64,000 nt of DNA from Zanthoxylum bungeanum. Lineage: Eukaryota > Streptophyta > Magnoliopsida > Sapindales > Rutaceae. The position numbers and the translations under genes are program-made. Position 1 is the stretch's first letter. Each line of letters starts with the position of its first letter. The stretch lies in the NCBI GenBank assembly GCA_019454045.1, contig SKCR01032781.1, forward strand, positions 1 to 64,000, written 5' to 3'. Shown here in pieces: positions 5,145 to 32,896 of this stretch. A model generated the notes under the pieces. The model had not been told where the DNA came from and ran no database searches. It worked only from the letters and a program-made list of their open reading frames with translations.

Positions 5145-5147
5145 AAA

Positions 5148-10702: not shown

Positions 10703-10705
10703 AAA

Positions 10706-12477: not shown

Positions 12478-13791
12478 TGACCGGCGTAAACACACACGTA
12501 TAACGCAAGCGCACGTTTCGTTCAAGTAGTATAAAAATATCGATCCCACGGAGGACTTAATATCTAAACTATTAATTTTATGAGGTCAAATGATTACTAG
12601 AATCTAACAGGGTTGATTGATTTGAAATGGTGACGATTCTAAATTTAAAAAAACAAGTAATAAAATTGTCGAAAATAGGTTTTAAGAAAATTCAAATTTA
12701 AAAACTATCTAGGGTTGTGATTTCTTCCAATATCATTTTATAGATGAAGTGGTTATCTTAAAGTTGGGTAACATATTGATTTATTAACCTGGAACACTAA
12801 ATTATGTGTAAGCCTCTGTAGATGGTCAGACAAAATACCCAGTTTAACCCAATTGAACCATATGTCTATGTCAACCAAATTATCTGGATTCATTAAGTTT
12901 AAGTTTCAATTATGGCTACCCCCGCCCGACAGGTATATTCCTATCCTGTAAGGAAATCTATTAAAGGGTTATTTATCCTCAAGGAAGATCGTGGGCTATT
13001 GAATCTAAGGCTAAAACCTAAAATCCCTATGTCTAGTTCATTTTAGATTTACCAGATCAATTTTATTAAAGGCCAGTTAATGAAAAAGTCATCACAACCC
13101 CAGATAACTAATTTAGTTACAACACATAACTAGGGCTAGTAAAAACTTGAAAATAAAATACATAAAGTAAAAATGTGGTAAAGTAAATACTGAAAAGTAA
13201 ATTACAATAAAATAAAATGCTAAGGTAAAAGGAATTACTTTTACTACTAATTTAGATATCTCCCATAATATAATATATAAACTTGTGATAACATTACCAA
13301 CCAGCCATATAGGCGGTATCCTGATTAAGTCAAATTAAGTCCAACCAGCCATTCAGGCGGTAATATTTGTCCATAAACCAGCCATAAAGGCGGAACCAAA
13401 ATTAAATTACCAACCGACCAATCTGGCGGTATCCTTGATTAGTCAGGTTTAAACCAGATTAAAATTAAATTACCAACCGACCAATATAGCGGTATCCTTT
13501 TTAAGTCAAATTTTAAATAGTGAATATATTATTTTTAAGGGAGATTAATCTAAATAGCAATAGTAAAAGAATTACCTTTCACCCTAGCTGAGGAAGTTAC
13601 CTCCTCATGGTAAATAGTAAAAACTGTAAAAAGTAAAAAACAAGTAAATTACTATTATTACAAAACGTAATTAAAATTAATTATAAAACTAAAAAAACTA
13701 AAAATTAAAAAGAAAGTAGAGAGAGAAACTCTCTCTTTACATCAAAGAGATGAGAGAGAGTGGTACAACAAAAACTGAAATCTCGAGCTCA

Positions 13792-13798
13792 ATTTATA
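13792..13798 (-). promoter_or_regulatory. Putative TATA box of the 3' LTR
   Basis: On the minus strand, CCTATAAATTGAGCTC lies about 820 bp into the LTR, just downstream of the ACGT-core motif array and upstream of a CT/GA-rich stretch. This fits a U3 promoter with transcription starting some 25-35 bp further on. The right LTR has the same arrangement at 32154-32160. Inferred from sequence and position only. Confidence 0.5.
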
Positions 13799-13864
13799 GG
13801 CCTCGGTAGGCTTCCAGCGTCGCGACGCCAGGGCCTTTGGCGTCGCTACGCCAGCTTCTGTCGA

Positions 13865-14360
13865 CGTGGCACGCTCTGGTTCGTCGATTTGCAGATTCTG
13901 GATAAGCTGATAAGATGACACGTGGCGAGGTGGTTGGGCTTCAATTATTGTGACATGTGGCGGCTTCTGATTGGTCGATGAGATTCATATCCGCCACATG
14001 TCAGATAAGGATTAGATACTCAATGATTGATGCTGACGTGGCGGTGACGTGGCGATGACGTGGCGACACGTGGGAAATAGACAGTCGGCACCGTAGGATT
14101 GCGACACGTGGCACTTCCTGATTGGTTTGATGATGACGTGGCAGTGAGGTGGCAGTTTGACTTGGTCAACCGTGTGATGTGGCTGATGACGTGGCAATGA
14201 CGTGGAGTGACACGTGGCACACGTGGCGATGATGACTGTCGGCACCGTAGGATGCTGACACGTGGCACGGCGCATGTTAGCAGATCGACTGTGATGGTGA
14301 CACGTGGCACGACGCACATTAGCAAAGTCAAACTTTTCTTAGATTCTGACACGTGGACCC
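13865..14360 (-). promoter_or_regulatory. ACGT-core (G-box-like) motif array in U3
   Basis: More than ten copies of ACGTGG, many in the form GACACGTGGC, occur within about 500 bp. They are interspersed with TCGGCACCGTAGGAT and GATGACGTGGC blocks. CACGTG is the plant G-box and ACGTGGC resembles the ABRE core, both bound by bZIP or bHLH factors. The array lies upstream of the TATA box in both LTRs, with different unit numbers, so it may act as a repeated enhancer. Confidence 0.6.
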
Positions 14361-14617
14361 GGTGCACGTTAGCACTGTTCGGCGCATTTTAGGCGTCGCG
14401 ACGCTGAAGGTCCTGGCGTCACGACGCGGGAATTTACCGAATTGCCGTTTTCGTCCAATTTTCACTGTTTTGGCCCAAATCACCTCCAAAATGTCCTGAA
14501 ACTTTATTTATCTATAAAATAACACAAAACACATCAAAATATTCACAAAACTCAAGAAACTATTACAAAATATTCGGTTAAATGAGTGGGAAATAGTGAT
14601 AGATTTACCACTCATCA

Positions 14618-14632
14618 CACCCCTAAACCTAA
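14618..14632 (-). promoter_or_regulatory. Polypurine tract of the Athila-like element
   Basis: On the minus strand, TTAGGTTTAGGGGTG abuts the 3' LTR start TGATGAGTGG. The preceding GCTCGAGGACTAGCAAAATG is also typical of the region just before gypsy 3' LTRs in plants. It primes plus-strand DNA synthesis. Confidence 0.75.
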
Positions 14633-15958
14633 CATTTTGCTAGTCCTCGAGCAAAACATAGAGTAAAATATCATAAATAAATTAACTAAGCCACTTTCGT
14701 AGGGATCACGGTTGCATTTAGCGTATGCAACAAGCCTTTAAACCCCTAGGTATCCATAGTGGACGAGTTGTAGTCTCGTGAGGGTTTACAGCAATGATAC
14801 CCACAAACATTTTACAAAAGTAAACAGGTAATAAAACTAATGCACACAAAAGCAAAAAGACAAGCGAAAAGAGAATAAAGAAGTTAGTGACTAATCAGGT
14901 GAAACTTCTACTCCAAGTTACTAGTTGTTTTGTTTCATTCTAAATTACTGAATAAGTAAATTCCCGATTATTTTTACCATTCTCCATATACACAGCCAAC
15001 ATAATATTAAACAACTCATTTTTGCCCACAACAGTCATAAGTGCATTGATAAGAGAGTAATATTTTTGTCCTAAAGTTTTATCAGAATTCACACCTTTTT
15101 GCAGCAATGGAATAATTTTTCAGATTTTTCAGATTTTTTTCTTTGATTTTGTTTTCTATTTTTTATTTATATACAATACTTTCCGTCTATGTCGCGAGTG
15201 TTGGGTCGGTGGCTCCCAAACCAGTTGGCTTTAGGGCACCAGGTGTTAAGACACCCCTACAGACTTAATTACTCAGACTTCAGATATATATATTTTTGCA
15301 GCATCTTTGATCCATGTAACGAGCTTTGGGCCAGTGACTCCCAAACCAGTTGGCTTTAGGGCACTAGGTGTTAAAACACCTTTACAGACTTAATAACTCG
15401 GATCTCAGATGTTTTTTTTTTTTTTTACTCCATTGCTTTTTGAGATGTTTCCTCCAATTAAACTAGAGCACTGAATATTACAAACTTTTCAATTTTAGCT
15501 CATGTCCGTATGTTACTATATATGTTGATAATATCTGTCAACTGAGCATATGAAGATCCATTTTAGTCTGTTTTAAGGAGAATTCACAATTTAAATAATT
15601 CAAAATGAAATAAACAAAAATTAACTTGTTTCGAAATAGGCTTGAGATACGTCTCAGGGGTGGAAACTCTTACTCAGCTATCTCTTACCAATTTCACCTT
15701 TTTAGTTAAAATAAAAACACAAAAACACAAAATATTTTTTGTAATTTTTGAAAAATTTCAATTTTTTTGTATTTTTCGAAAAATTTTGGACTAAAAATAA
15801 AAAAACACACAAACTAAAAACAAGGTATTGATCAACTAATTCCCTCCCCCAAACCTAAATGAGACATTGTCCCCAATGTCTTAAACAGTAAAAGGAGAGT
15901 TAAGAAGGTCGTACCTGGTTAGCTGAAATCTACAGGAAATTAAAGGTTAAGATCCAGA
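14633..15958 (-). other. 3' non-coding region of the Athila-like element
   Basis: About 1.3 kb between the LOG-like sequence and the polypurine tract, with no open frame of note. Positions 15200-15413 hold two imperfect direct repeats with a period of about 125 bp, both containing CTCCCAAACCAGTTGGCTTT and AGGTGTTAAxACACC. The stretch from about 15390 to 15958 reappears at 57793-58347 in front of the second LOG-like copy. T-rich runs occur at 15120-15170, 15408-15427 and 15735-15785. Confidence 0.7.
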
Positions 15959-16592
15959 TTACTGACGCCTCTTACCACGATCGTCCTCGGACCAATTTAT
16001 CTTTGAAAGGATAGGGTCAACTTGTGGTTCATAGGCTAAGAGTTGGTCAATTAGATCCGGAGCAGTTCTTGCAGTAAAGAGGAGTTCTTTCAAAGGTTTT
16101 GACACGAACCCATTTCTCCGAGCATCATCAAGAAACACACAAAGAAAATCATAAAATCCATCAACGTTGAGCAGTCCAAGCGGTTTCTGGTGTATGTTCA
16201 GGTTCGCCCAAGATAGAACTATAAAAATTTCCTCCAATGTACCCAAGCCACCTAGCAAAGCGATAAAAGCATCAGCACGGTTAATCATTTCTACCAAACG
16301 TTCAGACATACCTGGCACAATCAGTTCCTCTCCGTTTGATGGTTCAATAAGATTTGCCTCTGCCAAGGGTTTTGGGATGATTCCCAAAACGTGACTGCCT
16401 CATTCCTGTACAGCCTTTGAAACGATCCCCATAAGTCCAAGATTTCCTCCGCCATATATTAAGTGCATATCCTTACAGCTAAGACTCGACCCAATTCCTG
16501 TGCTACTTCTACGTATTGTGGTTTAGTTCCAACACTACTACCGTAAAACACACAGATGTTTTCAACTCGTCTTCTTGAAGTGGCTTCCATTT
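15959..16592 (-). pseudogene. LOG-like cytokinin riboside 5'-monophosphate phosphoribohydrolase, copy 1 (retroelement cargo, broken)
   Basis: LOG enzymes release active free-base cytokinin from cytokinin riboside 5'-monophosphate. The ATG at 16592 begins MEATSRRRVENICVFYGSS, the usual LOG N-terminus. Then come AQELGRVLA, a frameshift near 16465, the glycine-rich YGGGNLGLMG region in another frame, an in-frame TGA near 16407 (QE then GSHVLGIIPK), and an open C-terminal half from 16387. That half contains MSERLVEMI, LGGLGTLEE at the substrate-binding PGGxGTxxE site (Pro replaced by Leu), and QKPLGLLNVDGFYD. About 211 codons is near the family's usual length, and the coding run has no intron, unlike typical plant LOG genes. 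It lies in sense in the retroelement, 258 bp downstream of the 182-codon ORF. The assignment is firm; activity is unlikely given the frameshift and stop. Confidence 0.9.
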
Positions 16593-16850: not shown

Positions 16851-17399
16851 TTATGCGTCAAGGACAAGCTTCCCATCCAATTTTCTTATAAATTGGCAAA
16901 CAGGGTCTTTTTGAGTCAGATTCCCGAGACTTAACAGTTGTCTTTCCTTTTGGAATTGTGCATATAACATGAGAATTTCATGATACACACATCCACTGGG
17001 ATGCGTCTCAAGAGTTTTAGATATGTCATCCAAAGACTCCTTACTCAAGCCATCCCTAATGAAGTTAATCTTATATTCGCGGTTATCGGATACCATTCCT
17101 AAAGAACGACAACGAGTATTACAAAATATGCGAGCACATTTATAACAAACACACATTCTTTTGGCTCTTCTCTTTTTAACATATGTGCTCTTTCCTAAGC
17201 CAGGCAGATGTGAAATAAAAGAGTCAGAAGACTCACCTGCCAATCGGACCCGTGCTTCAATTAACCAACAAATGTCAGTAGGAATACCTTTGATTGTCAG
17301 TAACCTCATCCGTTCCAAGCGAGCTTTGTAGACTTTAATTAGAGATTTTTGAGGGAGAGAAGGAAATTGCTTGTGAAGATTTGCGAGAGCTTCTTCCAT
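16851..17399 (-). CDS. Unknown 182-aa Cys/Lys-rich ORF in the Athila-like element
   Basis: I do not recognise this protein. It has an intact frame from ATG to stop in an otherwise badly broken element. It lies 138 bp downstream of the integrase C-terminal stop and 258 bp upstream of the LOG-like start, all in the same sense. The N-terminal 60 residues look helical (MEEALANLHKQFPSLP start, LIKVYKARLERMRLL). Around residues 96-102 is a basic KKRRAKR stretch that could be a nuclear signal. It is followed by a cysteine cluster C-x-C-x2-C-x4-C-x3-C (CVCYKCARIFCNTRC, about residues 104-118), possibly zinc-binding. The C-terminus is mixed, with no membrane span, so an env-type role is not supported. 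It could be an accessory ORF or a captured host fragment. Confidence 0.6.
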   Translation of the reverse strand: MEEALANLHKQFPSLPQKSLIKVYKARLERMRLLTIKGIPTDICWLIEARVRLAGESSDSFISHLPGLGKSTYVKKRRAKRMCVCYKCARIFCNTRCRSLGMVSDNREYKINFIRDGLSKESLDDISKTLETHPSGCVYHEILMLYAQFQKERQLLSLGNLTQKDPVCQFIRKLDGKLVLDA

Positions 17400-17537
17400 C
17401 TTGAAAAGACTAAACTCAAAAAATTAAACACACAAAAATATAAAACACACCAAATCACAATATATACAAAATTGCATGGGTTGCCTCCCTGCTAGCGCTA
17501 AGTTTAAATTCGTCAGCCAGACTTGACTTCTCGAACG

Positions 17538-17880
17538 TTAAGCTAGATCTGAAAGTGTAACACTTTCTTTTTGTCGCTCAAATGATTCTCCCCAGTAGTG
17601 CTTGACACGCTTGTTTTTAACCTTGAAAGTTTTGTTAGCGTCAGGATCATGTATCTCAACGGCTCTATTTGGTAAAAATTTGGTGATCACAAATGGACCT
17701 GACCACCGTGATTTTGGCTTCCATGGGAAGAATTTCACCCTTGATTTGTTTAACAGTACCTTCTGCCCTGGTTCCAGTTATATGCGCACTAACTTCTCAT
17801 CATGTATTTTCTTGCCCTTTTCTTTGTACAATTTGGCATCCTCAAAAGGCTGATTGTGAAATTCCTCCAATTCGTTGAGC
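17538..17880 (-). pseudogene. Gypsy integrase C-terminal region (isolated)
   Basis: The minus-strand frame 17738-17538 reads FFPWKPKSRWSGPFVITKF, then AVEIHDPDANKTFKVKNKRV and KHYWGE. This is the C-terminal DNA-binding part of plant Athila/gypsy integrases. Upstream in another frame are AKLYKEKARK-type residues, from the linker after the catalytic core. The HHCC and D,D-35-E core is missing, and protease-derived sequence lies only about 200 bp upstream. The last codons ESVTLSDLA end at a stop at 17538-17540. Confidence 0.82.
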
Positions 17881-18080
17881 TGGTGGAACTTTTTCCTTCT
17901 GTTGCTTGTAGTGCAAGAATTGGCTCCTTCAGTACAAATGACGCTTTATCTTTAGGCTCCACAAGGCAATTGACATGTTTTAAGTTGTCAGTAGAACTTT
18001 GCATTGCATTGGAGTTCTAAATGGTACTGTGTATCACATCGAGTTTGAAACATTCCTCTTTCTTTTCATCATCTGGGAAT
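17881..18080 (-). other. Deletion scar joining protease to integrase end
   Basis: About 200 bp with stops in all frames. It links a NVFKAM-type motif that follows gypsy proteases to the integrase C-terminal linker. In a complete element roughly 3 kb of RT, RNase H and integrase core would lie here. I could not place the exact breakpoint by eye. Confidence 0.55.
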
Positions 18081-18337
18081 TCATGGCCTTGAAAACATTG
18101 ATGTTACTTCTTGGTCCTGTACCCTCATGGTTAATTCTCCTTTTTGTACATCAATATGGTCGACCTGTAGCCAAGAATGGTCTCCCAATGATGATTGGCA
18201 AGTCTGCGTCTCCTCCATATCAAGGACAATAAAATCTGCTGGGAAAATGAAATTTGTCACCTTTGACCAGCACATCCTCAACTACGCCTCTTGGAAATAC
18301 GAGCGTTCTATTAGCAAGTGTAGTGAGACTGAAGTTG
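18081..18337 (-). pseudogene. Gypsy aspartic protease, C-terminal part
   Basis: Minus-strand frames read KVTNFIFPADFIVLDMEE (18281 frame), then IIIGRPFLATGR in a neighbouring frame, then DVQKGELTMRVQDQEVT. This is the flap and C-terminal half of the retropepsin-like protease of Athila-type gypsy elements. Two frameshifts break it. The N-terminal half is on the other side of Copia-B1, at 28766-29185. Confidence 0.82.
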
Positions 18338-18342
18338 GCATT
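18338..18342 (+). repeat. Target site duplication GCATT (left) of Copia-B1
   Basis: GCATT lies immediately before TGTTAGACATT at 18343 and is repeated at 28761-28765 immediately after GAAACCAACA. This is an exact 5-bp duplication, so Copia-B1 inserted into the Athila-like protease. Confidence 0.95.
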
Positions 18343-20317
18343 TGTTAGACATTATGTCCCATAGCGTCACTGTTTGTAAATGATATTGTATTATTGTACA
18401 AAATTAACTATGTGATAATGAAATTGCCTTTTGCCATTTTGTAAATATTATTTACTTTGATATATAAATGGCGAAAGTCCATATGATTAGTACTGGATTG
18501 AGATGATATGAGACAGTATCAATCCATAAAGGTTTAATCATTAAATATCCCTAGCCGTAGTATTATCGAGACTGGACATCGATAATGCGGAATAGACTAG
18601 TATTGCGCTTGTGCACGTTGTGAGGGCACAACGGCATAGTTCTCATATATTTAAGTATTGGATACTTATGCAAGTGCGATAGGAGGTTGTGTTTTACCGA
18701 TGGTACGGAAAACAGCTTCGCTCTGGATAGACCCCGCGGAATCCCATTGGTAGTATGTCTGCGTGTCTATGGGAGGCCGCATCAGGGTAGGTGTATATGG
18801 TCTTAACCTGAGACTTACATCGCTAGTACTTGCGACAATCGGTAAACTTTGGTTTTGGTGGTTGGGGACCTTAACCGGTTCTGTGTACACCTCTTCTGGG
18901 TTTATCGAGAATCGTAGTGTACTGGATGTGTGATGTCAAGATGGAAGTATCGCTTCAGACATATGGAGGTGATGATCACGCAGGACACAGAACTAGTACT
19001 CTATAAAAGGTTGCAACCGTCGGGACAATATGACCAGGTCAGGATTGTCCGATTTAAAGAGACTAGTTGCTTGATGTCCGATATATGTTTCGTACGGGGC
19101 AGACACATCTCCAGCCCCAGGCCTAGCATGTGATCATCCGATACTGGATCGATGTACGCAATACTACGGTATACTACGCTTGATATAGATCTTATATTCC
19201 TATAAGAATATTTCTGGAGAATTGGGTAGGCATGGCGCTTTGCTAGAAGCCAACCTTGTCTTGTGAATCGGTAAGAACGTAGTACGAGGTACGTGCGTGT
19301 TCGGATTATCCGACGACCGTATTTACTGCCAACATATCCGGAGATCTCTTGGGTCGCTTCCTGAAGATTCACCTATGATATTTGATTCGAACTTAATTAA
19401 TCTTGGATTAATTGCGGAGAAACTTTATCTCGGATAAAGTGCCTTATTTAGAGAGAGAGAACGATTAATTTGGAATTAATCGATAAAATTATTATATTCG
19501 ATATAATAATTGAAATTCGATTTCGACGCGAAATTAAAATTAGATTTTAATTCGGGCATACGAGTTAATTTAGAATTAATTCGTTAGCGACGTAAATAAT
19601 AATTTCGCTAGGAGCGATTATTTATTTAAATTCGATTTAATTAACGTCGCGACGCAAGTTCGGTATTTCGGAAATATCGAACCCGAACGCGTGAGTGGAC
19701 GTGGGCCCACTTTCATTTGGAAACGTGTGGGGCCCACATGACACATGTCATTATATGTATTATTTTATTGATAATGCATTGCATGGTGATAGTGTATAAT
19801 ACACTCAATGTTATGCATGGAATTTGAGTGTTTGACACTCTAAGCCTTTGCATGGCTTGTGTCATAGATTTATTATTATTTAATAAATATTATGGCATAA
19901 ATATAAATTGATTTTTGGTATCAAAAATCAATAGAACAAAAGAAATTTCTCTTCTCTCTCTCTTCATGACCGAAAACTGCATGCAGTTTTGGTCTTCATC
20001 TTCTTCAATTTGGTTGCCAAAAGCTTGAAGAAAGGGTGTTGTTTGGAACATCTTCTCACATGCAAGGCTAGCACCATCAAGGAATCAAAAGAGGTGATAG
20101 GGAAACCATCATAGAGCAAGGAATACACAAAGCTTGGAGCTTCCTACTTCTTGTCTTCCTTGGCCGAATCATCCAACCTTGGAGCTTCCATTTGGTTTGA
20201 TTTTTCTTCATCAACAAAGCATTGTAAGTATGATTCCGCCATACTTCATGTTTTATATATATTCTTTTGTATTTCATGTATGCTTAATCTTTCCTTGGGA
20301 CATATTAGAAACCAACA
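18343..20317 (+). repeat. 5' LTR of Copia-B1
   Basis: 1975 bp, TGTTAGACATTATG...GAAACCAACA. It is near-identical to 26785-28760; examples of differences are GTGTGATG versus GTGATG near 18930 and an extra AGAG near 19455. Frames on both strands of 67-123 codons in it are LTR sequence; the plus-strand one is broken here by the 2-bp indel. Confidence 0.94.
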
Positions 20318-20318
20318 A

Positions 20319-20333
20319 TGGTATCATGGAGCC
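20319..20333 (+). promoter_or_regulatory. Primer binding site, Copia-B1
   Basis: TGGTATCATGGAGCC, one base after the LTR. It matches the initiator tRNA-Met-type site over eight bases and then departs, exactly as in Copia-B2. Confidence 0.72.
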
Positions 20334-22816
20334 ATGGTTAAGCATGAAATACTTTAGGTTAAAATTTGATAAAATTGGTTGAAGCATGTTCTTGTGAAAT
20401 TTGATGAATAAGTATGCTTGCATGTATATAGAATGATGTTATATGGAATCAATTTTATGAAAAATGCATTGGATGATTTTTCCCCAAAATTTTAACCTTG
20501 GCCGAATGGGTGTGTAAAATTTGATTGAAGCATGTCTTGTGAAATTTGATGAATAAGTATGCTTGCATGTATATAACATGATGTTATATGGAATCAATTT
20601 TATGAAAAATGCATTGGATGATTTTTCCCCCAAATTTTGACCTTGGCCGAATGATATGGTGAAATTGATTGAAGCATGTTCTTGTGAAATTTGATTAATA
20701 AGAATGCTTACATGTATATAGAATGATGATACATGGAATCAATTTTATGAAAAATGCATTGGATGATTTTTCCCCAAATTCATGCCTTGGCCGAATGTGT
20801 TGCTACTTGGAGTGGATTGGAATTTTTTGTGTTTAAGATCATTGGATGACTTAGAACGTGTACGGGACGTAGATTAGTAATTCAATCGGATTGAAAAACA
20901 AATCGACACAAAAAACTCACCTTGGCCGAATACATAGGACATGTAAAGGAGTTGATTTTTGTTAAAATTAATGTTGGACATTTATTTTGAACAATACATG
21001 ATTAATAAATTAAATGGGTATTTTTGAAATATTTGGTTTAATGTATTAATCTTGGTATTACACTTTAATTAATTGGACTTTAATGTTTGGAATATTAAAA
21101 TTTAATTAATGGGCTTAATTGGTGAATTGGGCTTTTAATATTGTATTTGGGCATAATGGGCTTGGTTGGACCAAGTAGATTTGGGCCAAATGGATTGGAT
21201 CCAATTTGGGCCTAAATCACTCCATTAAGTCCAAATATAATATAATGGGCTTTAAAATTTAATTGGGCCTTATGGGCTTAAAATTGGTTTTATGGCATTT
21301 AAGGGTGATTCCTTATTTGGGCTTGGTAATTGGGTTTGACCCACATTGACCAAAGCCCAAGCCTTAATAAATCAATTCTAAGCCATTTGACTTGAATTAA
21401 ATTCAACATTGGATGTTAGTTGGGCTTTGAGACCCAATAAGATTAGATTTAGAATCTAAGTCTTTAAAGCACATTAAAAGTGTAAACATTTAATTTGGAA
21501 TTAAATAATTGAATTAGTATTGAATACGAATTGAATTAGATTTAATAGTAGTTCGATATAATTCGCGAATTCGTACCTTATGTACTTATTCTCAATCGAG
21601 TTGGACTCGCGCAAAATCAAACCGTTGTTTGAACATTGGATGATCACTTAAACAAAGACTAATTAATTGGATTAGATTGGTTGTATTGTAAAAGCATGTC
21701 TTGTTTGAATATATATGTATGTGATGAATGAATAGTGTATATCGGATGGATTAGAAGGGAAAGGGTAATTTTAGAAATTATTGTAAATTTGGAATTTATA
21801 AATTGGACCTGCGTGTCCAGCCTTATCTCTTTATCTCTTTGTATTCTCTTCTCACCTAATTCCCCTCAATGTAAATGAGGTTTCTCTTATTGTATTATGT
21901 AATTGGGTAGAAGTAGAATAGTGCTAGCGGGGAGAGGAAAGGGAGTGATTTGTTCTAGGAACAAGTTGTTTATATATCCATCCGCATATCACTATTAATT
22001 TACTTTACGCGCTTTATGATGTTTTAGAAGCATGCTTAAGGGTGTATGATGATGAGACCTAACAAAGATAAATAAATTGGTTGCCAATTACGCGAAAATC
22101 CCTCAATTTATATTAAGCGAATATCCTTCCATTGAATGGTTCTTGTTCAAGATCCGAAGTTGGCATTGGTTTGTTTTTGACCAAAGTCAAGACCTTTGTC
22201 AATCAAGGATGTACTTGAATCATGAGAGTTTTGTTGCATATCGGTGTCTTGTCCAAATCGTGATTTTTATTGGCCAAAGTCAAGATCACTTTTTGTCCAA
22301 CGACATTGATTACGAAACTTTCCTCGTCAATGGGTCCCGCTTAACTGGAATCATTAGGTTTTTTTGGCCAAAGCCAAGGCCTAGTTGATTCGGAGGATAG
22401 GTTAGGAAAATGTATTAGATACATTGACATTATACATATGTTTCGGACTTGGATGTCCACCTAACCGGATCTAGGAATTGGATGAGATCCAATTGATCAT
22501 GGAGATCTACCTAAGTTAAATAGCATACAATTTTTATTGGCCAAAGTCAAGGTTGTGTGTTATTTAACGGGATCCTAGCCCACTAGGAAATTCGATTTCC
22601 CGAGTTCTCTACAGAGGGTTAGAAACTTGAAGAAAATAGTGGGAGGCTATTATTGAATTTGCAATTTCATTCAGATATTTAGCCTTACGCATCTTTCAAA
22701 ATTATTTCGTCAATATTTTAATAATTAGTTGGACTAATATATTGTTATTTTTATTTGTAACAGTTTGACTGTACCCATAACATCGTTGACTTTATAGTTG
22801 GACTATAGTTGTCAAG
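20334..22816 (+). other. Copia-B1 long untranslated leader
   Basis: About 2.5 kb without a credible gene. 20379-20811 holds three tandem units of about 145 bp. 21090-21430 is dense in TGGGCTT/AAGCCCA motifs. 21820-21900 has a TC-rich stretch. 22165-22560 has four copies of a TTGGCCAAAGTCAAG-like motif 80-170 bp apart; the 103-codon frame at 22077-22388 runs through them. Just before gag is GAAAATAGTGGGAGG. The same layout occurs in Copia-C1 (39929-42040), so these are conserved parts of a long copia leader. Confidence 0.72.
20379..20811 (+). repeat. Tandem repeat, 3 units of about 145 bp
   Basis: Units start at 20379, 20525 and 20669 (periods 146 and 144). Each begins TTGAAGCATGTTCTTG, includes GCATTGGATGATTTTTCCCC and ends CCTTGGCCGAATG. 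Copia-B2 has two such units at about 929-1230. Confidence 0.88.
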
Positions 22817-23842
22817 ATGATTGGCAAAGGTAATATCCGCGACATAATCATGGGCGATAATGTCTTCAAAGGGACAAACTTTGCCGACTGGGAAATGAAC
22901 CTCAAGATAGTGCTTGGGGCTGAGAGGATACTGTATACTATTCAGAGACCTCTCCCGCCTAAACCCACTGAGCCACTGGAGCTAGAGTTATGGAAAACTC
23001 ATAGTGACGATTGTGACCAAGCTCAGTCAGTTATGCTAGCTGCAATGACCCAGCATTTCAGACGCCAGAATAGGGACTTGGATCCCTATAACATGATGGC
23101 AAGATTGCGTGATCTTCACCGCACCAATAAGCGGATGAAGAGGTACGAGCTAGTAAGGAAACTCTTCCGCTCCCGGATGACAGACGGCGCATCAGTTGAA
23201 GCCCACGGGACTCAAATGATCGCCGATATTGATGAGTTGGCCAATATGGGAATAGTCTTGGAGGCTGAGCTGACTATAGATATGATCTTGCAGTCACTTC
23301 CTGATACTTGGAAACAAATCATAATCAACTACAAGTTGATGGATACAGATGACACTCTTGGAGAGCTGTTATCTGTCTTGAAGGAGTCCGAAAGGGAACT
23401 CCTAAAGGGGAGCAAGCGCGAGGCGCATTTTGCATCGACCTCTCATGCGCCAAAGGGTGGCCCCAAGGCAATTGGAGGTGCGAGGAAGAAGAAGTTCAAG
23501 AAAAAGGGCAAAGGCAAGTTGACAGTGGCTTCTAGGAAGCCAAAGGACAAATCTCGCGACATCTGCCTCAACTGCGGCAAGAGGGGTCACTGGAAACGTG
23601 ACTGCCGAATGAGCATTGTGCAGAGGGAGGATATCAAGGCTGGCAAGGCTATCGCCTCTGGTATGTTTGTTATTGAGATAAATATGAATACTTCTAGTTT
23701 TAAAAATTGGATTTTTGATTCTGGTTGTGGTGCTCATATTTGTACTGATGTGCAGGATCTGCATGATAGCAGGGTGCTGGCATCAGGGGAGATGAGATGG
23801 ATCGGGTTGGAAACGGAACACCAGTTGCTGTTTTGGCCGTAG
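22817..23842 (+). CDS. Copia-B1 Gag-protease N-terminal polyprotein
   Basis: A 341-codon frame from ATG 22817. Residues 10-160 are the copia gag (UBN2-type) domain with FKGTNFADWEMNLKIVL near the start. It is followed by a Lys-rich stretch (about 220-255) and the zinc knuckle CLNCGKRGHWKRDC (about 254-267), which binds the element's RNA. The protease begins with NWIFDSGCGAHICTDVQ (about 296-312), and the catalytic Asp-Ser-Gly is intact. The frame is lost at about residue 325 by a frameshift; normally it would continue into Pol. Gag itself appears intact and could form particles. Confidence 0.88.
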   Translation: MIGKGNIRDIIMGDNVFKGTNFADWEMNLKIVLGAERILYTIQRPLPPKPTEPLELELWKTHSDDCDQAQSVMLAAMTQHFRRQNRDLDPYNMMARLRDLHRTNKRMKRYELVRKLFRSRMTDGASVEAHGTQMIADIDELANMGIVLEAELTIDMILQSLPDTWKQIIINYKLMDTDDTLGELLSVLKESERELLKGSKREAHFASTSHAPKGGPKAIGGARKKKFKKKGKGKLTVASRKPKDKSRDICLNCGKRGHWKRDCRMSIVQREDIKAGKAIASGMFVIEINMNTSSFKNWIFDSGCGAHICTDVQDLHDSRVLASGEMRWIGLETEHQLLFWP

Positions 23843-24286
23843 GGACTTTTGTTTAGTAACTGCCCTCAGGGCATGAACTTAAACTTTTGAACTGTTATTT
23901 TGTACCTAGTTTAACTAGGAATATTATATCTGTATCCTTGTTAACCCAGCAGGGTTACACTTTTGTATTCAGGAACACTGGGTGTTATTTATATAAAAAT
24001 GATGCAGAAATTTGCACAGCTGTTGCAAATAACGGTCTTTATATTTTGAATATAAATGAATCTCCTAAAATGACAAACAAAAGGCTCAAAAGAGTAATCT
24101 AAAAGATGAAGCTTATATGTGGCATTGTCGTCTAGGACACATCAACAAGACTCGCATATCCACACTTTCGAAGAGTGGGTACTTGGACGAATTTGATCCC
24201 AATTCATATGACGTCTGCGAATCTTGTCTTTTAGGCAAAATGCCTAAATCACCTTTTAGCGGTAAAGGTGAACGTGCCACAGAACT
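23843..24286 (+). pseudogene. Copia-B1 protease end and pre-integrase zinc finger
   Basis: After stops at 23840-23880 the protease C-terminus is readable from LNCYFVPSLTRNIISV (23887 frame). A frameshift at about 24100 then leads to the pre-integrase domain MWHCRLGHINKTRI with the second pair CESCLLGKM (frame 24117-24359). At least three frame changes occur in 450 bp. Confidence 0.82.
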
Positions 24287-24967
24287 ATGGCTCTCGTTCA
24301 TACTGACGTATGCGGGCCCATGTCTAGCCAGGCTAGAGGTGGATTTCACTACTTCGTAACCTTTACAGATGATGCATCTCGTTACGGTTATGTGTATCTT
24401 ATGAGACACAAGTCGGAAACTTTTGAGAAATTCAAAGAGTTTCGACACGAAGTGGAGAAACAAACAGGGAAGAGTATTAAGACATTACGGTCAGACCGTG
24501 GTGGCGAATACTTAAGTTATGAGTTTCAAGATTACTTGAAAGAATATGGTATTCTTTCACAGTGGACTCCTCCTGGAACACCGCAATTAAAGTGTGTGTC
24601 CGAACGGAGAAACCGCACCTTGTTGGACATGGTGAGGTCAATGATGAGTCGCACTGAGCTACCAATATCCTTCTGGGGATACGCATTAAACAGTGCTATA
24701 CTTATTTTGAATAAGGTACCGTCGAAGTCTGTTGAACAGACTCCATATGAAATATGGACAGGAAGGAAACCAGGTTTCTCTTTCCTGAAGATTTGGGGAT
24801 GCTGGGCATATGTTAAACGTTTGGAAGGTACCAAACTTGAACCCAAATCTGATAAATGCCTTTTCGTGGATATCCTAGGGAAACCAAAGGATATTACTTC
24901 TATCACCCACAAGAGAACAAAGTATTTGTTGCTCTACAAGCATTTTTCCTTGAGAAGGATTTTATAA
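24287..24967 (+). CDS. Copia-B1 integrase core (open fragment)
   Basis: A 226-codon open frame holds the D,D-35-E catalytic core of the integrase that inserts element DNA. Residues include VHTDVCGP (first Asp), LRSDRGGEY (second Asp) and SERRNRTLLD (Glu); normal spacing is kept. The usual NG of the PQxNGVSE motif reads KC here. The C-terminal YEIWTGRKP...LKIWGCWAYV segment is present. It overlaps the preceding domain in another frame, so it is a piece of a broken polyprotein, not a separate gene. Confidence 0.85.
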   Translation: MALVHTDVCGPMSSQARGGFHYFVTFTDDASRYGYVYLMRHKSETFEKFKEFRHEVEKQTGKSIKTLRSDRGGEYLSYEFQDYLKEYGILSQWTPPGTPQLKCVSERRNRTLLDMVRSMMSRTELPISFWGYALNSAILILNKVPSKSVEQTPYEIWTGRKPGFSFLKIWGCWAYVKRLEGTKLEPKSDKCLFVDILGKPKDITSITHKRTKYLLLYKHFSLRRIL

Positions 24968-26083
24968 ATGCAGTGGTAAGTGGAGGGAGAAAGTAGAACT
25001 CGATGAAGATCGTAGTGATACTGTTCCTGGCAATGAATCAACGACGGAACAAGAACAGACCGTCCGGATGAGTCTGTACCACAAACTTCACATACACAAG
25101 GACCGCGTAGGTCGGAGAGAGTCAGAACAGTACCTGAGAGGTATGGGTTCCTGATCTCACCTCATGTAGATATTAATCTTATTGAGGATAATGAGCCGGC
25201 TACGTATGAGGAAGCGATACAAAATATCGATTCCGCTTTATGGCAAGAAGCCATGAAGTCCGAGATGGATTCCATGTACGCCAACCAAGTTTGGACACTG
25301 GTTGATGCACCAGAAGGCGTAAAGCCTATTGGATGCAGATGGATCTTCAAGAAGAAGACCGACATGGATGGCAACGTACAAACGTACAAAGCTAGGCTTG
25401 TAGCGAAGGGGTATCGTCAACAATATGGTATTGATTATGACGAAACCTTCTCACCCGTTGCCATGATTAAATCCATTCGGATAATGCTTGCAATAGCTGC
25501 ATATTTCGATTACGAGATATGGCAGATGGACGTTAAAACCGCTTTCCTTAACGGAAACCTTTTGGAGGATGTTTATATGCAACAGCCTGACGGTTTTATC
25601 GTACCTAGACTTGCAAACAAGGTTTGTAAGTTAAATCGATCCATTTATGGATTGAAGAAGCAAGCATCACGGTCATGGAATCAGCGTTTTGATGAGATCA
25701 TAAAAGAATATGATTTCGTGCAAAACGCAGATGACCCTTGTGTATACAAGAAGGTTAGTGGGAGAGCACTTACTTTTATTGTCCTTTATGTCGACGACGT
25801 ATTGCTTATAGGCAATGACATTCCCATGCTAACGTCGGTGAAAGCTTGGCTTTCATTAAAATTCTCCATGAAAGATCTGGGAGAAGCAGCCTTTATTCTT
25901 GGAATAAAGATCTACAGGGATAGATCTAGAAAGCTGCTTGGACTCTCCCAGAGTACATACATTGATAAAGTGTTGAAGCGATTCAACATGGAACAATCCA
26001 AGAGGGGATTGGTTCCAATGGTACGTGGTACCTCTCTGTCTAAGGACATGTGTCCTAAGACTCAGGAAGAGAGAGACACATGA
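24968..26083 (+). pseudogene. Copia-B1 reverse transcriptase
   Basis: The integrase-RT linker (24968-25250) is frameshifted. From 25253 a 276-codon frame covers the [35 protein letters not shown] with the first catalytic Asp, and VLYVDDVLLIG with the YVDD active site at about 25786-25797. It reaches a TGA at 26081-26083 caused by a one-base loss. RNase H follows in the next frame from 26080. The RT itself retains all core motifs. One extra Lys (LKKQASR) interrupts the usual LKQASR motif. Confidence 0.88.
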
Positions 26084-26760
26084 GTCGGATACCGTTCGCC
26101 TCGGCAGTCGGATCGATCATGTATGCCATGATATGTACACGACCTGATGTCTCATATGCTTTGAGCATGTGCAGTCGCTATCAGGCCGATCCAGGTGAAG
26201 GTCACTGGATAGCAGTTAAGAATATCCTTAAGTATCTTAAACGAACTAAGGATGCTTTCTTAATTTATGGAGGTGGAGAACTTGCGGTATCTGGGTATAC
26301 CGATGCAAGTTTCCAAACCGACAAGGATGACTACAAGTCGCAATCCGGGTACATTTTTTGTTTGAATAACGGAGCAGTGAGCTGGAAATCTTCCAAGCAA
26401 GATACTGTTGCCGATTCAACAACAGAAGCGGAGTACATCGCTGCATCTGAAGCAGCAAAGGAGGCAGTTTGGATCCGAAAGTTCCTAATCGGATTAGGAG
26501 TAGTTCCGTTAGCAGCTGAGCCCGTTCCATTGTATTGTGACAATAACGGGGCTATAGCACAGGCTAAGGAACCAAGGTCTCATCAACGGTCCAAGCATGT
26601 TCTTCGACGTTACCATCTGATTCGGGAGATTATACATCGTGGCGATGTAAAATCGAGAAGGTCACATCAGATGACAACATTGCAGATCCGCTGACGAAGC
26701 TGTTCTTCAGCAAGTTTTTGAACGACACATACATAGTTCGGGTATTAGATGCTTGAGTGA
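26080..26760 (+). pseudogene. Copia-B1 RNase H
   Basis: A 204-codon frame includes GSIMYAMICTRPDVSYAL at the RT-RNase H connection, then GYTDASF, the ADSTTEAEYIAASEAAKEA block with the catalytic Asp/Glu residues, and YCDNNGAIAQAKEPRSHQR. RNase H degrades the RNA strand of the RNA:DNA hybrid. The frame shifts near 26650; the natural end (NIADPLTK-like residues) is readable to about 26756, 28 bp before the 3' LTR. Confidence 0.88.
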
Positions 26761-26771
26761 CTGGCTATAGG

Positions 26772-26784
26772 CCAAGTGGGAGAT
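26772..26784 (+). promoter_or_regulatory. Polypurine tract, Copia-B1
   Basis: GGCCAAGTGGGAGAT ends directly at the 3' LTR TGTTAGAC. AAGTGGGAG is the usual plant copia plus-strand primer and recurs before the C1 and C2 3' LTRs. Confidence 0.88.
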
Positions 26785-28760
26785 TGTTAGACATTATGTC
26801 CCATAGCGTCACTGTTTGTAAATGATATTGTATTATTGTACAAAATTAACTATGTGATAATGAAATTGCCTTTTGCCGTTTTGTAATATTATTTACTTTG
26901 ATATATAAATGGCGAAAGTCCATATGATTAGTACTGGATTGAGATGATATGAGACAGTATCAATCCATAAAGGTTTAATCATTAAATATCCCTAGTCGTA
27001 GTATTATCGAGACTGGACATCGATAATGCGGAATAGACTAGTATTGCGCTTGTGCACGTTGTGAGGGCACAACGGCATAGTTCTCATATATTTAAGTATT
27101 GGATACTTATGCAAGTGCGATAGGAGGTTGTGTTTTACCGATGGTACGGAAAACAGCTTCGCTCTGGATAGACCCCGCGGAATCCCATTGGTAGTATGTC
27201 TGCGTGTCTATGGGAGGCCGCATCAGGGTAGGTGTATATGGTCTTAACCTGAGACTTACATCGCTAGTACTTGCGACAATCGGTAAACTTTGGTTTTGGT
27301 GGTTGGGGACCTTAACCGGTTCTGTGTACACCTCTTCTGGGTTTATCGAGAATCGTAGTGTACTGGATGTGATGTCAAGATGGAAGTATCGCTTCAGACA
27401 TATGGAGGTGATGATCACGCAGGACACAGAACTAGTACTCTATAAAAGGTTGCAACCGTCGGGACAATATGACCAGGTCAGGATTGTCCGATTTAAAGAG
27501 ACTAGTTGCTTGATGTCCGATATATGTTTCGTACGGGGCAGACACATCTCCAGCCCCAGGCCTAGCATGTGATCATCCGATACTGGATCGATGTACGCAA
27601 TACTACGGTATACTACGCTTGATATAGATCTTATATTCCTATAAGAATATTTCTGGAGAATTGGGTAGGCATGGCGCTTTGCTAGAAGCCAACCTTGTCT
27701 TGTGAATCGGTAAGAACGTAGTACGAGGTACGTGTGTTCGGATTATCCGACGACCGTATTTACTGCCAACATATCCGGAGATCTCTTGGGTCGCTTCCTG
27801 AAGATTCACCTATGATATTTGATTCGAACTTAATTAATCTTGGATTAATTGCGGAGAAACTTTATCTCGGATAAAGTGCCTTATTTAGAGAGAGAACGAT
27901 TAATTGGAATTAATCGATAAAATTATTATATTCGATATAATAATGAAATTCGATTTCGACGCGAAATTAAAATTAGATTTTAATTCGGGCATACGAGTTA
28001 ATTTAGAATTAATTCGTTAGCGACGTAAATAATAATTTCGCTAGGAGCGATTATTTATTTAAATTCGATTTAATTAACGTCGCGACGCAAGTTCGGTATT
28101 TCGGAAATATCGAACCCGAACGCGTGAGTGGACGTGGGCCCACTTTCATTTGGAAACGTGTGGGGCCCACATGACACATGTCATTATATGTATTATTTTA
28201 TTGATAATGCATTGCATGGTGATAGTGTATAATACACTCAATGTTATGCATGGAATTTGAGTGTTTGACACTCTAAGCCTTTGCATGGCTTGTGTCATAG
28301 ATTTATTATTATTTAATAAATATTATGGCATAAATATAAATTGATTTTTGGTATCAAAAATCAATTAGAACAAAAGAAAATTCTCTCCTCTCTCTCTTTC
28401 ATGCCGAAAACTGCATGCAGTTTTGGTCTTCATCTTCTTCAATTTTGGTTGCCAAAAGCTTGAAGAAAGGGTTGTTGTTTGGAACATCTTCTCACATGCA
28501 AGGCTAGCTAGCACCTTCAAGGGATCAAAAGAGGTGATAGGGAAACCATCATAGAGCAAGGAATACACAAAGCTTGGAGCTTTCTTACTTCTTGTCTTCT
28601 TGGCCGAATCATCCCAACCTTGGAGCTTCCATTTGGTTTGATTTTTCTTCATCACAAAGCATTGTAAGTATGATTCCGCCATACTTCATGTTTATATATA
28701 TTCTTTGTTGTATTTCATGTATGCTTAATCTTTCCTTGGGACATATTATAGAAACCAACA
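26785..28760 (+). repeat. 3' LTR of Copia-B1
   Basis: 1976 bp, matching 18343-20317. The LTR has a sense open frame of 122 codons (27204-27572) that is also open in Copia-B2 (2434-2802 minus) and, diverged, in Copia-C2 (49238-49603 minus). Confidence 0.94.
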
Positions 28761-28765
28761 GCATT

Positions 28766-29878
28766 GTTTCTCCAATCTGTAATTCCTGTGTTGAAAATAG
28801 ATAAAAGGCATCAAAGTTAAACACTTCGCACCAAATCAACAAGCCTTACCAAAGTTATGTTCTCCTTAGACGCAAGGAACAATGAAACTGCCAGGATCTT
28901 TCAACTTCGGGGGAAGTAGTTTCCTCTGAATGATGAACTGCATTCTTCTGTTAATGCTACTGTCTCGTAACTCCAATCTCCGTTTTCGTGATGAAAGAAT
29001 ATCTTCATGAATTTGGCATAGGTGGCCATTTGTTCTAACGCTTCTGCAAATGGAATGTTGATATGCAGCTTTGAAGATCTCAGGAGCCGAGAAAACTTCT
29101 TGTCCAATTTGTTCTTCTGAAGACGTTGAGGAAAAGGTAGAGGTGGAATGATCTGTTCTTTTTCCTTTGCTTCTTTTTCCTCCATTGTTGCTTGTTTCTT
29201 TGGAACTTCTCGCAGCTGTTTGGCTCCAACATCTTGTTGATTTCAGTACCGCTTTTTAACATGATGGCATGACATTGCTCATTCCCCATGTTCTTGGATT
29301 TGGCCCTGTGTTGCTAGGAATGGACCTGGCTGTCTGTAACTCTGAGCATTTGCCAGTTGTCCCATTTGATTCTCAGTGCTTTAATAGAAGCAGATTGACT
29401 TTGAATTAATGCTGTTGGGATTGAAACATAGCATCATATCTTGCTGCTTGAGAGTCGTGTTTTGCTTCTAACTTTTTCAAGTGGGGTCAACACTTCTTTT
29501 ATTCCTGGTTCATTTGCCTACTCCTGGCTTTTGTTCTGTTGCTGGAATTCAAGTGGTGGATAGTTCTGCTGTTGGCCTGAATTGTTGCTCCATGAAAATT
29601 GGGATGATTCCTCCACCCTGGTGTAGGTGTTGGAATATGGATGTTCCATTGTCTGTTGAAATTGCTGACATAATTCACCGTTTCTTCAAGTGGTTCGACT
29701 CTGGTGTCCTCCATATGGTGAACTGTGGATCCAGTGGTAAAGAGTCTCCATAAATTTACATATCTGATCTAGCTTGGCGTGACTGCTGTATTGGCTCCAC
29801 TTTCATAAATTCCTGCAATTCTTTGGATCATGCTCCTTTCTGTTGGCCACAAAGGAATTGTTGTTGGCCATTCTTCGA
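28766..29878 (-). pseudogene. Athila-like gag C-terminus and protease N-terminus (broken)
   Basis: This continues Gag on the minus strand. The frame 29714-29499 has a WRNHPNF motif typical of the Athila gag tail. The frame 29185-28901 has PFPQRLQKNKLDKKFSRLL, KLHINIPFAEALEQM and YETVALTEECS, the region leading into the protease. The active-site neighbourhood, a D-L-G-A-like stretch near 28815, is frameshifted. The coding sequence is cut at 28766 by Copia-B1 and resumes at 18337. Confidence 0.82.
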
Positions 29879-30724: not shown

Positions 30725-30743
30725 GTCCCCGGCAACGACGCCA
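30725..30743 (-). promoter_or_regulatory. Primer binding site (tRNA-Asp type)
   Basis: On the minus strand, TGGCGTCGTTGCCGGGGAC lies six bases after the 5' LTR. It is complementary, with one mismatch, to the 3' end of plant tRNA-Asp (CCCCGGCAACGGCGCCA). Such a site is characteristic of Athila and related gypsy elements. Confidence 0.88.
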
Positions 30744-32153
30744 AAAACTTGACCGGCGTAAACACACAAGTATAACGCAAGCGCACTATCGTTCAAGTAG
30801 TATAAAATATCGATCCCACGAGGACTTAATATCTAAACTATTAATTTTATGAGGTCAAATGATTACTTGTATCTAACAGGTTGTTTGATTGATTTGAAAT
30901 GGTGACGATTTTAAATTTAAAAAAACAAGTAAATAAAATTGTCGAAAATAGGTTTTAAGAAAATTCAATTTTAAAAACTATCTAGGGTTGTGATTTCTTC
31001 CAATATCATTTTAAAGATGAAGTGGTTATCTTAAAGTTGGGTAACATATTGATTTATTAACCTGGAACACTAAATTATGTGTAAGCCTCTGTCGATGGTC
31101 AGACACAAATACCCAGTTTAACCCAATTGAACCATATGTCTATGTCAACCAAATTATCTGGATTCATTAAGTTTAAGTTCCAATTATGGCTACCCCCGCC
31201 CGACCGGTATATTCCTATCCTGTAAGGAAATCTATTAAAGGGTTATTTATCCTCAAGAAAGATCGTGGGCTATTGAATCTAAGGCTAAAACCTAAAATCC
31301 CTATGTCTAGTTCATTTTAGATTTACCAGATCAATTTTATTAAAGGCCAGTTAATGAAAAAGCATTAAGATTAAGACTCAATAAATAAATCTTTATATTA
31401 CCCAAGCTATAATCTAACCCCTTATAAAACAGTGATATTAAAAGTCATCACAACCCCAGATAACTAATTTAGTTACAACACATAACTAGGGCTAGTAAAA
31501 AACTTGAAAATAAAAGACATAAAGTAAAAATGCGGTAAAGTAAATACTGAAAAGTAAATTACAATAAAATAAAATGCTAAGGTAAAAGGAATTACTTTTA
31601 CTACTATTAATTTAGATATCTCCCATAATATAATATATAAACTTGTGATAACATTACCAACCAGCCATATAGGCGGTATCCTGATTAAGTCAAATTAAGT
31701 CCAACCAGCTATTCAGGCGGTAATATTTGTCCATAAACCAGCCATAAAGGCAGAACCAAAATTAAATTACCAACCGACCAATCTGGCGGTATCCTTGATT
31801 AGTCAGGTTTAAACCAGATTAAAATTAAATTACCAACCGACCAATATAGCGGTATCCTTTTTAAGTCAAATTTTAAATAGTGAATATATTATTTTAAGGG
31901 AGATTAATCTAAATAGCAATAGTAAAAGAATTACCTTTCACCCTAGCTGGGGAAGTTACCTCCTCATGGTAAATAGTAAAAACTGTAAAAAGTAAAAAAA
32001 AACAAGTAAATTACTATTATTACAAAACGTAATTAAAATTAATTATAAAACTAAAAAAACTAAAAATTAAAAAGAAAGTAGAGAGAGAAACTCTCTCTTT
32101 ACATCAAAGAGATGAGAGAGAGTGGTACAACAAAAACTGAAATCTCGAGCTCA

Positions 32154-32160
32154 ATTTATA
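32154..32160 (-). promoter_or_regulatory. Putative TATA box of the 5' LTR
   Basis: TATAAAT on the minus strand in the context CCTATAAATTGAGCTC. It lies downstream of the ACGT-core array and upstream of the GA/CT-rich block at 32085-32125. This copy would drive the genomic RNA of the element. Confidence 0.5.
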
Positions 32161-32221
32161 GGCCTCGATAGGCTTCCAGCGTCGCGACGCCAGGGCCTTT
32201 GGCGTCGCTACGCCAGCTTCT

Positions 32222-32665
32222 TTCGACGTGGCACGCTCTGGTTCGTCGGTTTGCAGATTCTGGATAAGCTGATAAGATGACACGTGGCGAGGTGGTTGGG
32301 CTTCAATTATTGTGACACGTGGCAGCTTCTGATTGGTCGATGAGATTCATATCCGCCACGTGTCAGATAAGGATTAGATACTCAATGATTGATGCTGACG
32401 TGGCGGTGGACGTGGCGATGATGTGGCGACACGTGGGAAATAGACTGTCGGCACCGTAGGATTGCGACACATGGCACTTCCTGATTGGTTGATGATGACG
32501 TGGTAGTGAGGTGGCAGTTTGACTTGGTCAACCGTGTGATGTGGCTGATGACGTGGCAATGACGTGGAGTGACACGTGGCATACGTGACTGTCGGCACCG
32601 TAGGATGCTGACACATGGCACGGCGCAAGTTAGCAGATCGGCTGTGATGGTGACACGTGGCACGG
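32222..32665 (-). promoter_or_regulatory. ACGT-core (G-box-like) array in the 5' LTR U3
   Basis: About twelve ACGTG cores within 440 bp, including several GACACGTGGC. The array is bracketed by the 12-bp palindrome GCGTCGCGACGC at 32178-32189 and 32695-32706. One site differs from the 3' LTR copy (GACACATGGC at about 32464), consistent with CpG decay. Confidence 0.6.
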
Positions 32666-32896
32666 CGCACGTTAGCACTTTTCGGCGCATTTTAGGCGTC
32701 GCGACGCGGGAATTTACCGAATTGCTTTTTTCGTCCAATTTTCACTGTTTTGGCCCAAATCACCTCCAGAATGTCCTGAAACTTTATTTATCTATAAAAT
32801 AACACAAAACACATCAAAATATTCACAAAAATCAAGAAACTATACAAAATATTAGATTAAATGAGTGGGAAATAGTGATAGATTTACCACTCATCA

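Follow-up and report, generated by a model that had tools for sequence, protein, structure and literature searches.

The analysed stretch of Zanthoxylum bungeanum DNA (64,000 nucleotides, hereafter the window) holds a defective member of a large gypsy family in which pol is followed, in the same sense, by two accessory genes. One of these, a LOG gene, goes back to a spliced mRNA of a host LOG that was captured long ago; the other encodes a zinc-finger protein. Judging by the pattern of their variants, purifying selection preserved both accessory genes in the element lineage, and we regard capture and selection together as close to certain. LOG capture in gypsy elements is of an already reported kind. 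Added here are the retooled tail and pocket of the protein, its zinc-finger partner, the selection on both genes and compact derivatives of the element that keep LOG.

Results and Discussion

Anatomy of the element

The LOG-like stretch at 15959-16592 is coded on the minus strand, in the same sense as the enclosing gypsy LTR element (Table 1). Its place had been predicted correctly from the sequence, and the strand is here corrected to minus. For its longest piece, 15959-16399 (-), the PF03641 match has an E-value of 5.5e-31, and the anatomy bears out the predicted position of LOG, in sense, after the C-terminal region of integrase and before the 3' LTR. A chance match is contradicted by this E-value, by the repetition of the match, by codon-level selection and by the intronless match to spliced host exons.

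Table 1. Features of the LOG-carrying element and of related sequences in the window.
Feature	Position	Strand	Basis or remark
5' LTR (TG..CA)	30750..32896	-	
Primer binding site region TTTTTGGCGTCGTTGCCGGGGA, just inside 5' LTR	30726..30747	-	sequence reading
gag ORF, 270 codons	29882..30691	-	PF03732 Retrotrans_gag, E 5e-18
gag C-terminal / pre-RT region	28761..29878	-	BLAST of pieces, tblastn
Nested younger copia element, outside the LOG family	18342..28760	+	
Pre-RT (presumed protease) and integrase C-terminal remnants	17424..18330	-	BLAST of pieces; tblastn to L017 pol ORFs
Zinc-finger ORF, intact, 182 codons, basic cluster	16854..17399	-	PF05515 E 1.3e-5, PF01623 E 1.8e-4
LOG-like gene, broken copy	15940..16590	-	PF03641 match, tblastn pieces, sequence reading
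3' tail between LOG and 3' LTR, holds a repeat twice, 125 bases apart	14618..15939	-	
3' LTR (TG..CA)	12478..14617	-	
Second, older LOG copy	58351..59001	-	3 stops; its 3' tail 57790-58366

The two LTRs differ by a K2P distance of 0.0193 (2050 aligned bases), which at substitution rates for LTR dating of 1.3e-8 and 7e-9 corresponds to 0.7-1.4 million years, and the 5-bp duplication GAGAC stands on both flanks of the element (12473-12477 and 32897-32901). The primer binding site (PBS) is one we take to resemble the tRNA-Asp PBS of Athila/Tat elements. RT, RNase H and the integrase core are absent from this copy, and the protease named in Table 1 is presumed from position, the piece having no Pfam match. 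The copia element nested within has terminal repeats that are 98.3% alike over 1990 bases, and three tandem units with a spacing of 145 bases (20390-20811) lie behind the copia LTR. The LOG element itself is apparently nested in an older copia, with 6964-8034 and 33074-34144 forming a 96% repeat; 68-base tandem units occur three times at 32938-33141, beside the flanking copia frame, and a 3.7-kb direct repeat (3215-6934 and 8777-12484, 95% alike) lies to the left of the LOG element.

The window's LOG copy is broken. The predicted 211-codon intronless frame is indeed intronless; as a single open frame it fails, being interrupted by frameshifts and an in-frame stop. Two of the motifs first reported, CVFYGSS and YGGGNLGLMG, are in different frames, the stop falls between YGGGNLGLMG and GGLGTLEE, and by sequence reading the homology extends to about 15940, beyond the end of the frame first described. 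Other copies mostly read CVFCGSS and PGGLGTLEE at these places (of 41 aligned copies, 35 begin the PGG triplet with P, 5 with L and 1 with S). A basic and LxLxL tail is present in the window copy by homology, out of frame, and was thereby hidden from the original prediction, which also overlooked the carlavirus-type zinc-finger ORF next to LOG. The older LOG copy shares 74% protein identity over 217 codons with an intact copy, has a DNA identity of 83%, and retains the tail letters KKRRINLDLNL.

The family in the genome

Searches covered 3.96 Gb of genome. The LOG stretch has 40 scored matches, namely the window itself and 39 others at 95-97% identity; the best 150 scored places for the PF03641 profile all lie above the cut-off, 3 of them with a stop inside the match, and the best 150 scored zinc-finger matches have 89-100% identity. 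These sets are best-scoring lists, and the numbers of unscored first-look candidates (4757 for LOG, 47331 for PF03641 and 46373 for the zinc finger) are not used as copy counts. The LOG element family is highly repeated in the genome. Further copies and intact ones, both proposed as checks in the original prediction, exist: many element copies are found in the same genome, and the 217-codon LOG frame is open in 3 of the 20 loci that were fetched around LOG matches.

In 11 of these 20 loci the gag C-terminal region abuts the pre-RT/integrase C-terminal piece without RT, and the zinc finger and then LOG follow that piece. RT, RNase H and integrase domains occur in two loci (L017 and L020), two (L010 and L011) have no class assignment, and the remaining five (L013, L016, L018, L027 and L028) are compact. 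One copy, L010:4792-6976, has two zinc-finger stretches about 1.1 kb apart, and the diverged element L038 of this genome carries both zinc finger and LOG. Plant relatives of these LOGs bear gene annotations (LOGL10 in Populus, for example), as would be expected of an ordinary host LOG retrogene or gene family merely adjoining elements. But all 20 fetched loci have at least one family LTR near LOG, and the elements that hold LOG at a constant place have LTRs, a PBS and 5-bp duplications. We rejected the host-gene explanation on these LTR structures and find it hardly credible.

The compact form consists of LTRs, PBS, a gag-like ORF1, LOG and the 3' tail, with no RT, integrase or zinc finger. 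Exact 5-bp duplications stand around L013, L018 and L028, and L016 has one with a one-base mismatch; the stretch fetched for L027 yielded neither the 3' LTR nor most of the 3' tail. The PBS TTTTTGGCG(C/T)CGTTGCCGGGGA, presumably of tRNA-Asp type, is shared by the window and four of the five compact copies, L018 having two differing letters. In L028 (5263-6384, minus strand) ORF1 runs over 373 codons, with a Cys/His knuckle-like stretch (CVICDGNHPNDQC) and a faint likeness to the pre-RT ORF of L017; this ORF contains no RT or integrase. Likeness of compact to gag-type copies is 0.95-0.96 in LOG, 0.86-0.90 in the 3' tail and 0.73 in the upstream spacer (the tail likeness among compact copies, 0.77, is a figure disturbed by L027). 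High likeness of LOG and tail beside low likeness of the upstream spacer points to exchange of a LOG-plus-tail module, and LOG may have come into the compact copies by recombination.

Capture of a spliced host LOG

Four places came up when host LOGs were sought by a sequence pattern; tblastn identified them as three element copies and one diverged element. Since this search had found only element LOGs, host LOGs were located with an exon-sized host LOG peptide of 45 residues, ending in IALPG. Thirty exon-like host places rank first for this peptide (63-94% identity), followed by element copies (49-58%). The exon-like matches begin at residue 7-11 in 29 of the 30 and at residue 4 in one; element copies span the peptide. 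At least five exon junctions, one of them straight after IALPG, are present in the host LOG loci L049-L051, and L052, L053, L055 and L056 show the junctions that fall within their stretches. Element LOGs run unbroken across the mapped host junctions, e.g. from 1 to 217 in L031-L033 and L041-L048.

In the phylogenetic tree one branch with 100/100 support splits 43 element-type rows (38 left after thinning 100 database matches of suitable length, and 5 from this genome) from 27 host rows (22 host LOGs, AtLOG8 and four paralogues of this genome); a quick tree without this genome's paralogues has a separate element branch as well. Host LOGs in the set are mainly LOG1/LOG3 and LOG8, so that the element clade could be sister to another host paralogue. 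The safe reading is that a single capture would suffice to explain the element LOGs. Among the element-type relatives are sequences from Xanthoceras, Populus, Reevesia, Paulownia and Diplodiscus. We infer that the relatives in other species are element-borne too, as for Populus and Citrus is also indicated by PMC9289625. The capture is old, not recent, to judge from the long branch and from the one clade with relatives of several plant families. With host introns absent and a separate single clade, the original proposal that a gypsy element captured a spliced host LOG is upheld.

Classification and earlier reports

Domains in L017 and L020 follow the gypsy order (RVT_1, RT_RNaseH, Integrase_H2C2, rve), and the family belongs to gypsy, Athila/Tat (OTA) superclade. 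With respect to the label Athila-like given at first, the Athila/Tat (OTA) features are present; Athila ORF-1 (PF03078), a feature that is not required, is absent from the scanned ORFs. According to PMC6317226, PF03078 occurs in 16% of Athila elements and an additional RNase H (aRH) marks Tat; a Pfam scan of one copy, L017:2650-3924, found no second RNase H family.

Steinbauerova 2011 (Genetica) reportedly described a LOGL4-like ORF in two Athila-like elements. A YgdH/LOG domain in LTR-element consensuses of Citrus and Populus has been reported as 'in line with' that work (PMC9289625), and the earlier remark that no described case was known does not hold. Our literature searches brought up PMC9289625 as the one paper known to name this domain in LTR elements. 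All these elements share with ours the combination of gypsy and a LOG-family ORF. The available part of PMC9289625 has no zinc-finger partner, NLS/EAR-like tail, selection test on LOG, compact derivatives or active-site comparison. The same source describes orchid Ty3/gypsy elements that carry an AlkB m6A demethylase, likewise a host-type enzyme kept as an extra gypsy ORF; there the enzyme is another one and its activity was found in vitro, whereas that of the element LOG is putative. A survey of extra ORFs took those of at least 250 codons (PMC6317226), a limit by which both the LOG and the zinc-finger gene would be left out.

Selection on the accessory genes

From the 41 aligned LOG copies, L038, L039 and the second copy of the window were dropped as diverged or gapped. 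In the remaining 38, variants found in single copies have an N/S ratio to opportunity of 0.67 (S57 N121 stop3), those common to two copies of 0.52, and those common to at least three copies of 0.20 (S45 N28 stop1). Sense frames +1 and +2, used as controls for the last class, give 0.82 and 1.79, and the antisense controls 1.21, 0.31 and 2.14; the low value of frame anti1 (0.31) is expected if wobble positions are shared. For the zinc finger, 23 copies of 24 remain once L038 is left out, and the ratios are 0.88, 0.72 and 0.28 in one, two and at least three copies, with 2.01 and 1.73 for the out-of-frame controls of the last class. Ten gag copies give 0.95, 0.22 and 0.16 in the same three classes, and LOG in those ten 0.51, 0.23 and 0.27, the last on 13 variants only. 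Averaged over pairs of copies, dN/dS comes to 0.27 in LOG and to 0.30 in the zinc finger. All copies were found via LOG, the zinc finger or PF03641 and are to that extent a biased sample. These ratios indicate that LOG and zinc finger were maintained as proteins during the spread of the family and decay after insertion; the coding constraint seen in the LOG variants answers the question of selection along the element lineage that had been raised at the outset.

Within the five compact copies, singletons have a ratio of 0.24 in LOG (S31 N22 stop2) and of 0.54 in ORF1 (S49 N103 stop6). The LOG ratio may reflect the donor lineages, via recombination.

One could suppose that LOG is a hitch-hiking passenger without benefit, held between needed parts, or that it matters as DNA with cis signals. 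Many copies are broken, the window's among them, and the adjoining 3' tail is also fairly conserved between subfamilies, in keeping with such a passenger. Codon-specific constraint with its frame controls, and a protein tail conserved across divergent lineages, nevertheless speak against it; this explanation is already disfavoured, and we hold it very improbable.

Fold and active site of the element LOG

The element LOG matches TIGR00730 (E 3.5e-49) and 2a33 (E 2.1e-61). Its predicted model has a mean pLDDT of 84.5, with 2a33 as top Foldseek match (rmsd 1.3). Against the NCBI equivalog NF058542 it scores 117.4 bits, below the cut-off of 300, in a run of the element LOG alone. With the host LOG3/LOG1 cytokinin riboside 5'-monophosphate phosphoribohydrolases (2a33, 1ydh) it has in common the fold, PGGxGTxEE, R99 and E122, at 46-47% identity to three host LOGs; host LOGs differ in having introns, prenyl-pocket residues of their own and no LxLxL tail.

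R99 and E122 are the catalytic residues of LOG, and M96, H97, K100, E125 and W129 form the proposed prenyl pocket, K100 also lining the adenine site; alanine at crucial residues nearly abolishes activity (PMC4979012). Element LOGs possess PGGxGTxxE with the catalytic Arg and Glu. Of the 41 aligned copies of this genome, 39 retain R99, 41 E122 and 40 W129, and H97 is replaced by S (41), K100 by L (40) and E125 by I (38), i.e. the window's family keeps M and W and has three of the five pocket residues replaced. Among 120 relatives, G118 is present in 120, E122 in 115 and R99 in 108 (otherwise Q in 10, C in 1 and H in 1); position 100 is K in 11, and position 125 is E in 11. The pocket changed in another manner in the Populus, Reevesia and Paulownia relatives than in the window's family: positions 97, 100 and 125 read S, L and H in Populus and mainly H, M or I, and Q in Reevesia. 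Xanthoceras relatives have H, K and E there, as in host LOGs. Several relatives (P0009, P0011, P0012, P0017 and others) combine Gln for the catalytic Arg with a DIDLNR end.

These positions bear on three views of the protein's chemistry. As a plain cytokinin activator, LOG would convert nucleotides to free bases and bring more cell division where the element is active. The LOG fold, PGGxGTxEE and the R99/E122 pair of the window's family fit this, as do the host-type pocket residues of Xanthoceras; but H97, K100 and E125 are altered in the window's family and otherwise in the three other genera, K and E survive at 100 and 125 in few relatives, and the new conserved tail would be superfluous for cytokinin chemistry. 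We consider this explanation unlikely. On the second view, the LOG fold is a nucleotidase whose substrate has shifted to another N6-modified AMP or to a signalling nucleotide, and it would act on nucleotide signals or pools instead of cytokinin. This view agrees with phosphate-binding and catalytic positions that are largely kept and with N6-pocket positions that vary among lineages, but not with the loss of K100, part of the adenine site, nor with the 12 of 120 relatives that lack R99, and we find it rather improbable. The missing Arg of these 12 suggests that catalysis is not required in all lineages; it argues against an enzyme role there and leaves room for a scaffold, in which the LOG fold would serve only to carry the basic/EAR-like tail or to dimerise, with catalysis optional. 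In relatives with Gln at the catalytic Arg the frame stays open and the end is EAR-like or nearly so (DIDLNR, LDLNLSL), as in a scaffold, but E122 and the PGGxGT loop are largely retained, and so is R99 in nearly all copies of this genome; a scaffold pure and simple seems to us improbable to much the same degree, if not slightly more so. On balance we lean slightly towards the element LOG being active on some nucleotide. A cytokinin output is plausible; as the main product cytokinin is doubtful, and the 'growth-hormone activating enzyme' of the original prediction is an uncertain description, with catalytic residues kept in this genome and H97, K100 and E125 replaced.

A basic, EAR-like tail

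EAR motifs have the form LxLxL or DLNxxP and are used by pathogen effectors (PMC8126959). With the same pattern applied to both groups, an LxLxL end is found in 88 of 120 element-type matches and in none of 120 host LOGs, and a basic cluster in 103 of 120 against 1 of 120. The LxLxL is a short motif, and some of the 32 element-type matches without it are incomplete. In the thinned set LxLxL ends 27 of 38 sequences. Near-variants account for three others (DIDLNR twice, DIDMNL), one ends in DLNLTP, which fits the EAR form DLNxxP, the basic cluster is the last feature of three Xanthoceras-type rows, and the remaining four have another end or are incomplete. The tail is conserved among lineages with a protein identity of 51-66%, and it is disordered in the predicted structure (residues 203-217, pLDDT under 50).

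In its letters the tail resembles a nuclear signal followed by an EAR motif, and that it works as EAR/NLS is in our view slightly favoured. The pathogen EAR effectors XopD, PopP2 and Jsi1 likewise bear a short LxLxL or DLNxxP on a foreign protein (PMC8126959); the tail described here differs in sitting on an enzyme fold from a retroelement, with a putative docking on TOPLESS. No retroelement-encoded EAR protein appeared among the titles listed in a literature search.

The zinc-finger protein

The zinc-finger protein (182 aa) is 59-81% identical to 14 aligned relatives, which include sequences of Xanthoceras, Populus, Rhamnella, Acer and Orobanche. Four Cys (85, 88, 93 and 97) are conserved in the family, and among 15 scanned members PF01623 is matched by all and PF05515 by 13, above the Pfam cut-offs. 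The fold model has a mean pLDDT of 53.7; a profile search of solved structures with the family gave a single match (E 0.68), which was not used. Scans of viral contigs with the zinc-finger and LOG proteins as single queries, reaching close relatives, found none.

Carlavirus CRPs are silencing suppressors, and in one virus the nuclear localisation of the CRP is tied to a transcription factor linked to cell proliferation (PMC8839810). Carlavirus NABP/CRP proteins and the element protein share the Pfam matches (PF01623, PF05515) and a basic cluster just before the Cys cluster. They differ in the finger, C-X2-C-X12-C-X4-C in carlaviruses (PMC8839810) and C-X2-C-X4-C-X3-C here, and the element protein has 182 aa and lies inside a retroelement. 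By analogy it may be silencing-suppressor-like. We found no literature that joins Carla_C4 or Viral_NABP with a retrotransposon or YgdH.

A possible effector

The most likely reading, to which we give about an even chance, is that the element has retooled the LOG fold as a nuclear effector. The LOG protein would be made from element RNA, its basic tail would allow nuclear entry and its terminal, EAR-like LxLxL would dock on the TOPLESS corepressor; the LOG fold may still hydrolyse an N6-modified AMP, whether its substrate is a cytokinin nucleotide or has changed. In concert with the silencing-suppressor-like zinc finger, LOG would ease transcription and transmission in the cell, a meristem or germ-line precursor. 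The compact derivatives, which keep LOG without RT, integrase or zinc finger, suggest that LOG may aid the element's success cell-wide or act in cis.

Conclusions

The roles of extra ORFs in plant retrotransposons are mostly unknown (PMC7264820). The extra ORF described here has an identifiable enzyme fold of known chemistry, measurable selection, a short motif and a virus-like neighbour gene. Only tentatively do we extend the effector reading to a whole, long-lived eudicot retrotransposon lineage that runs a LOG-derived nuclear EAR effector together with a virus-type zinc finger and reprogrammes hormone and corepressor signalling, the nucleotide site being shifted and in some lineages perhaps dispensed with. 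If this were true, both kinds of signalling would be bent in favour of the element's expression and transmission, and LOG would be useful enough to be retained in derivatives that have lost RT, integrase and zinc finger. Should the tail prove to bind TOPLESS, or the enzyme to produce cytokinin, this would be a retrotransposon that acts on host development like a pathogen effector, and the benefit to the element would become directly testable.
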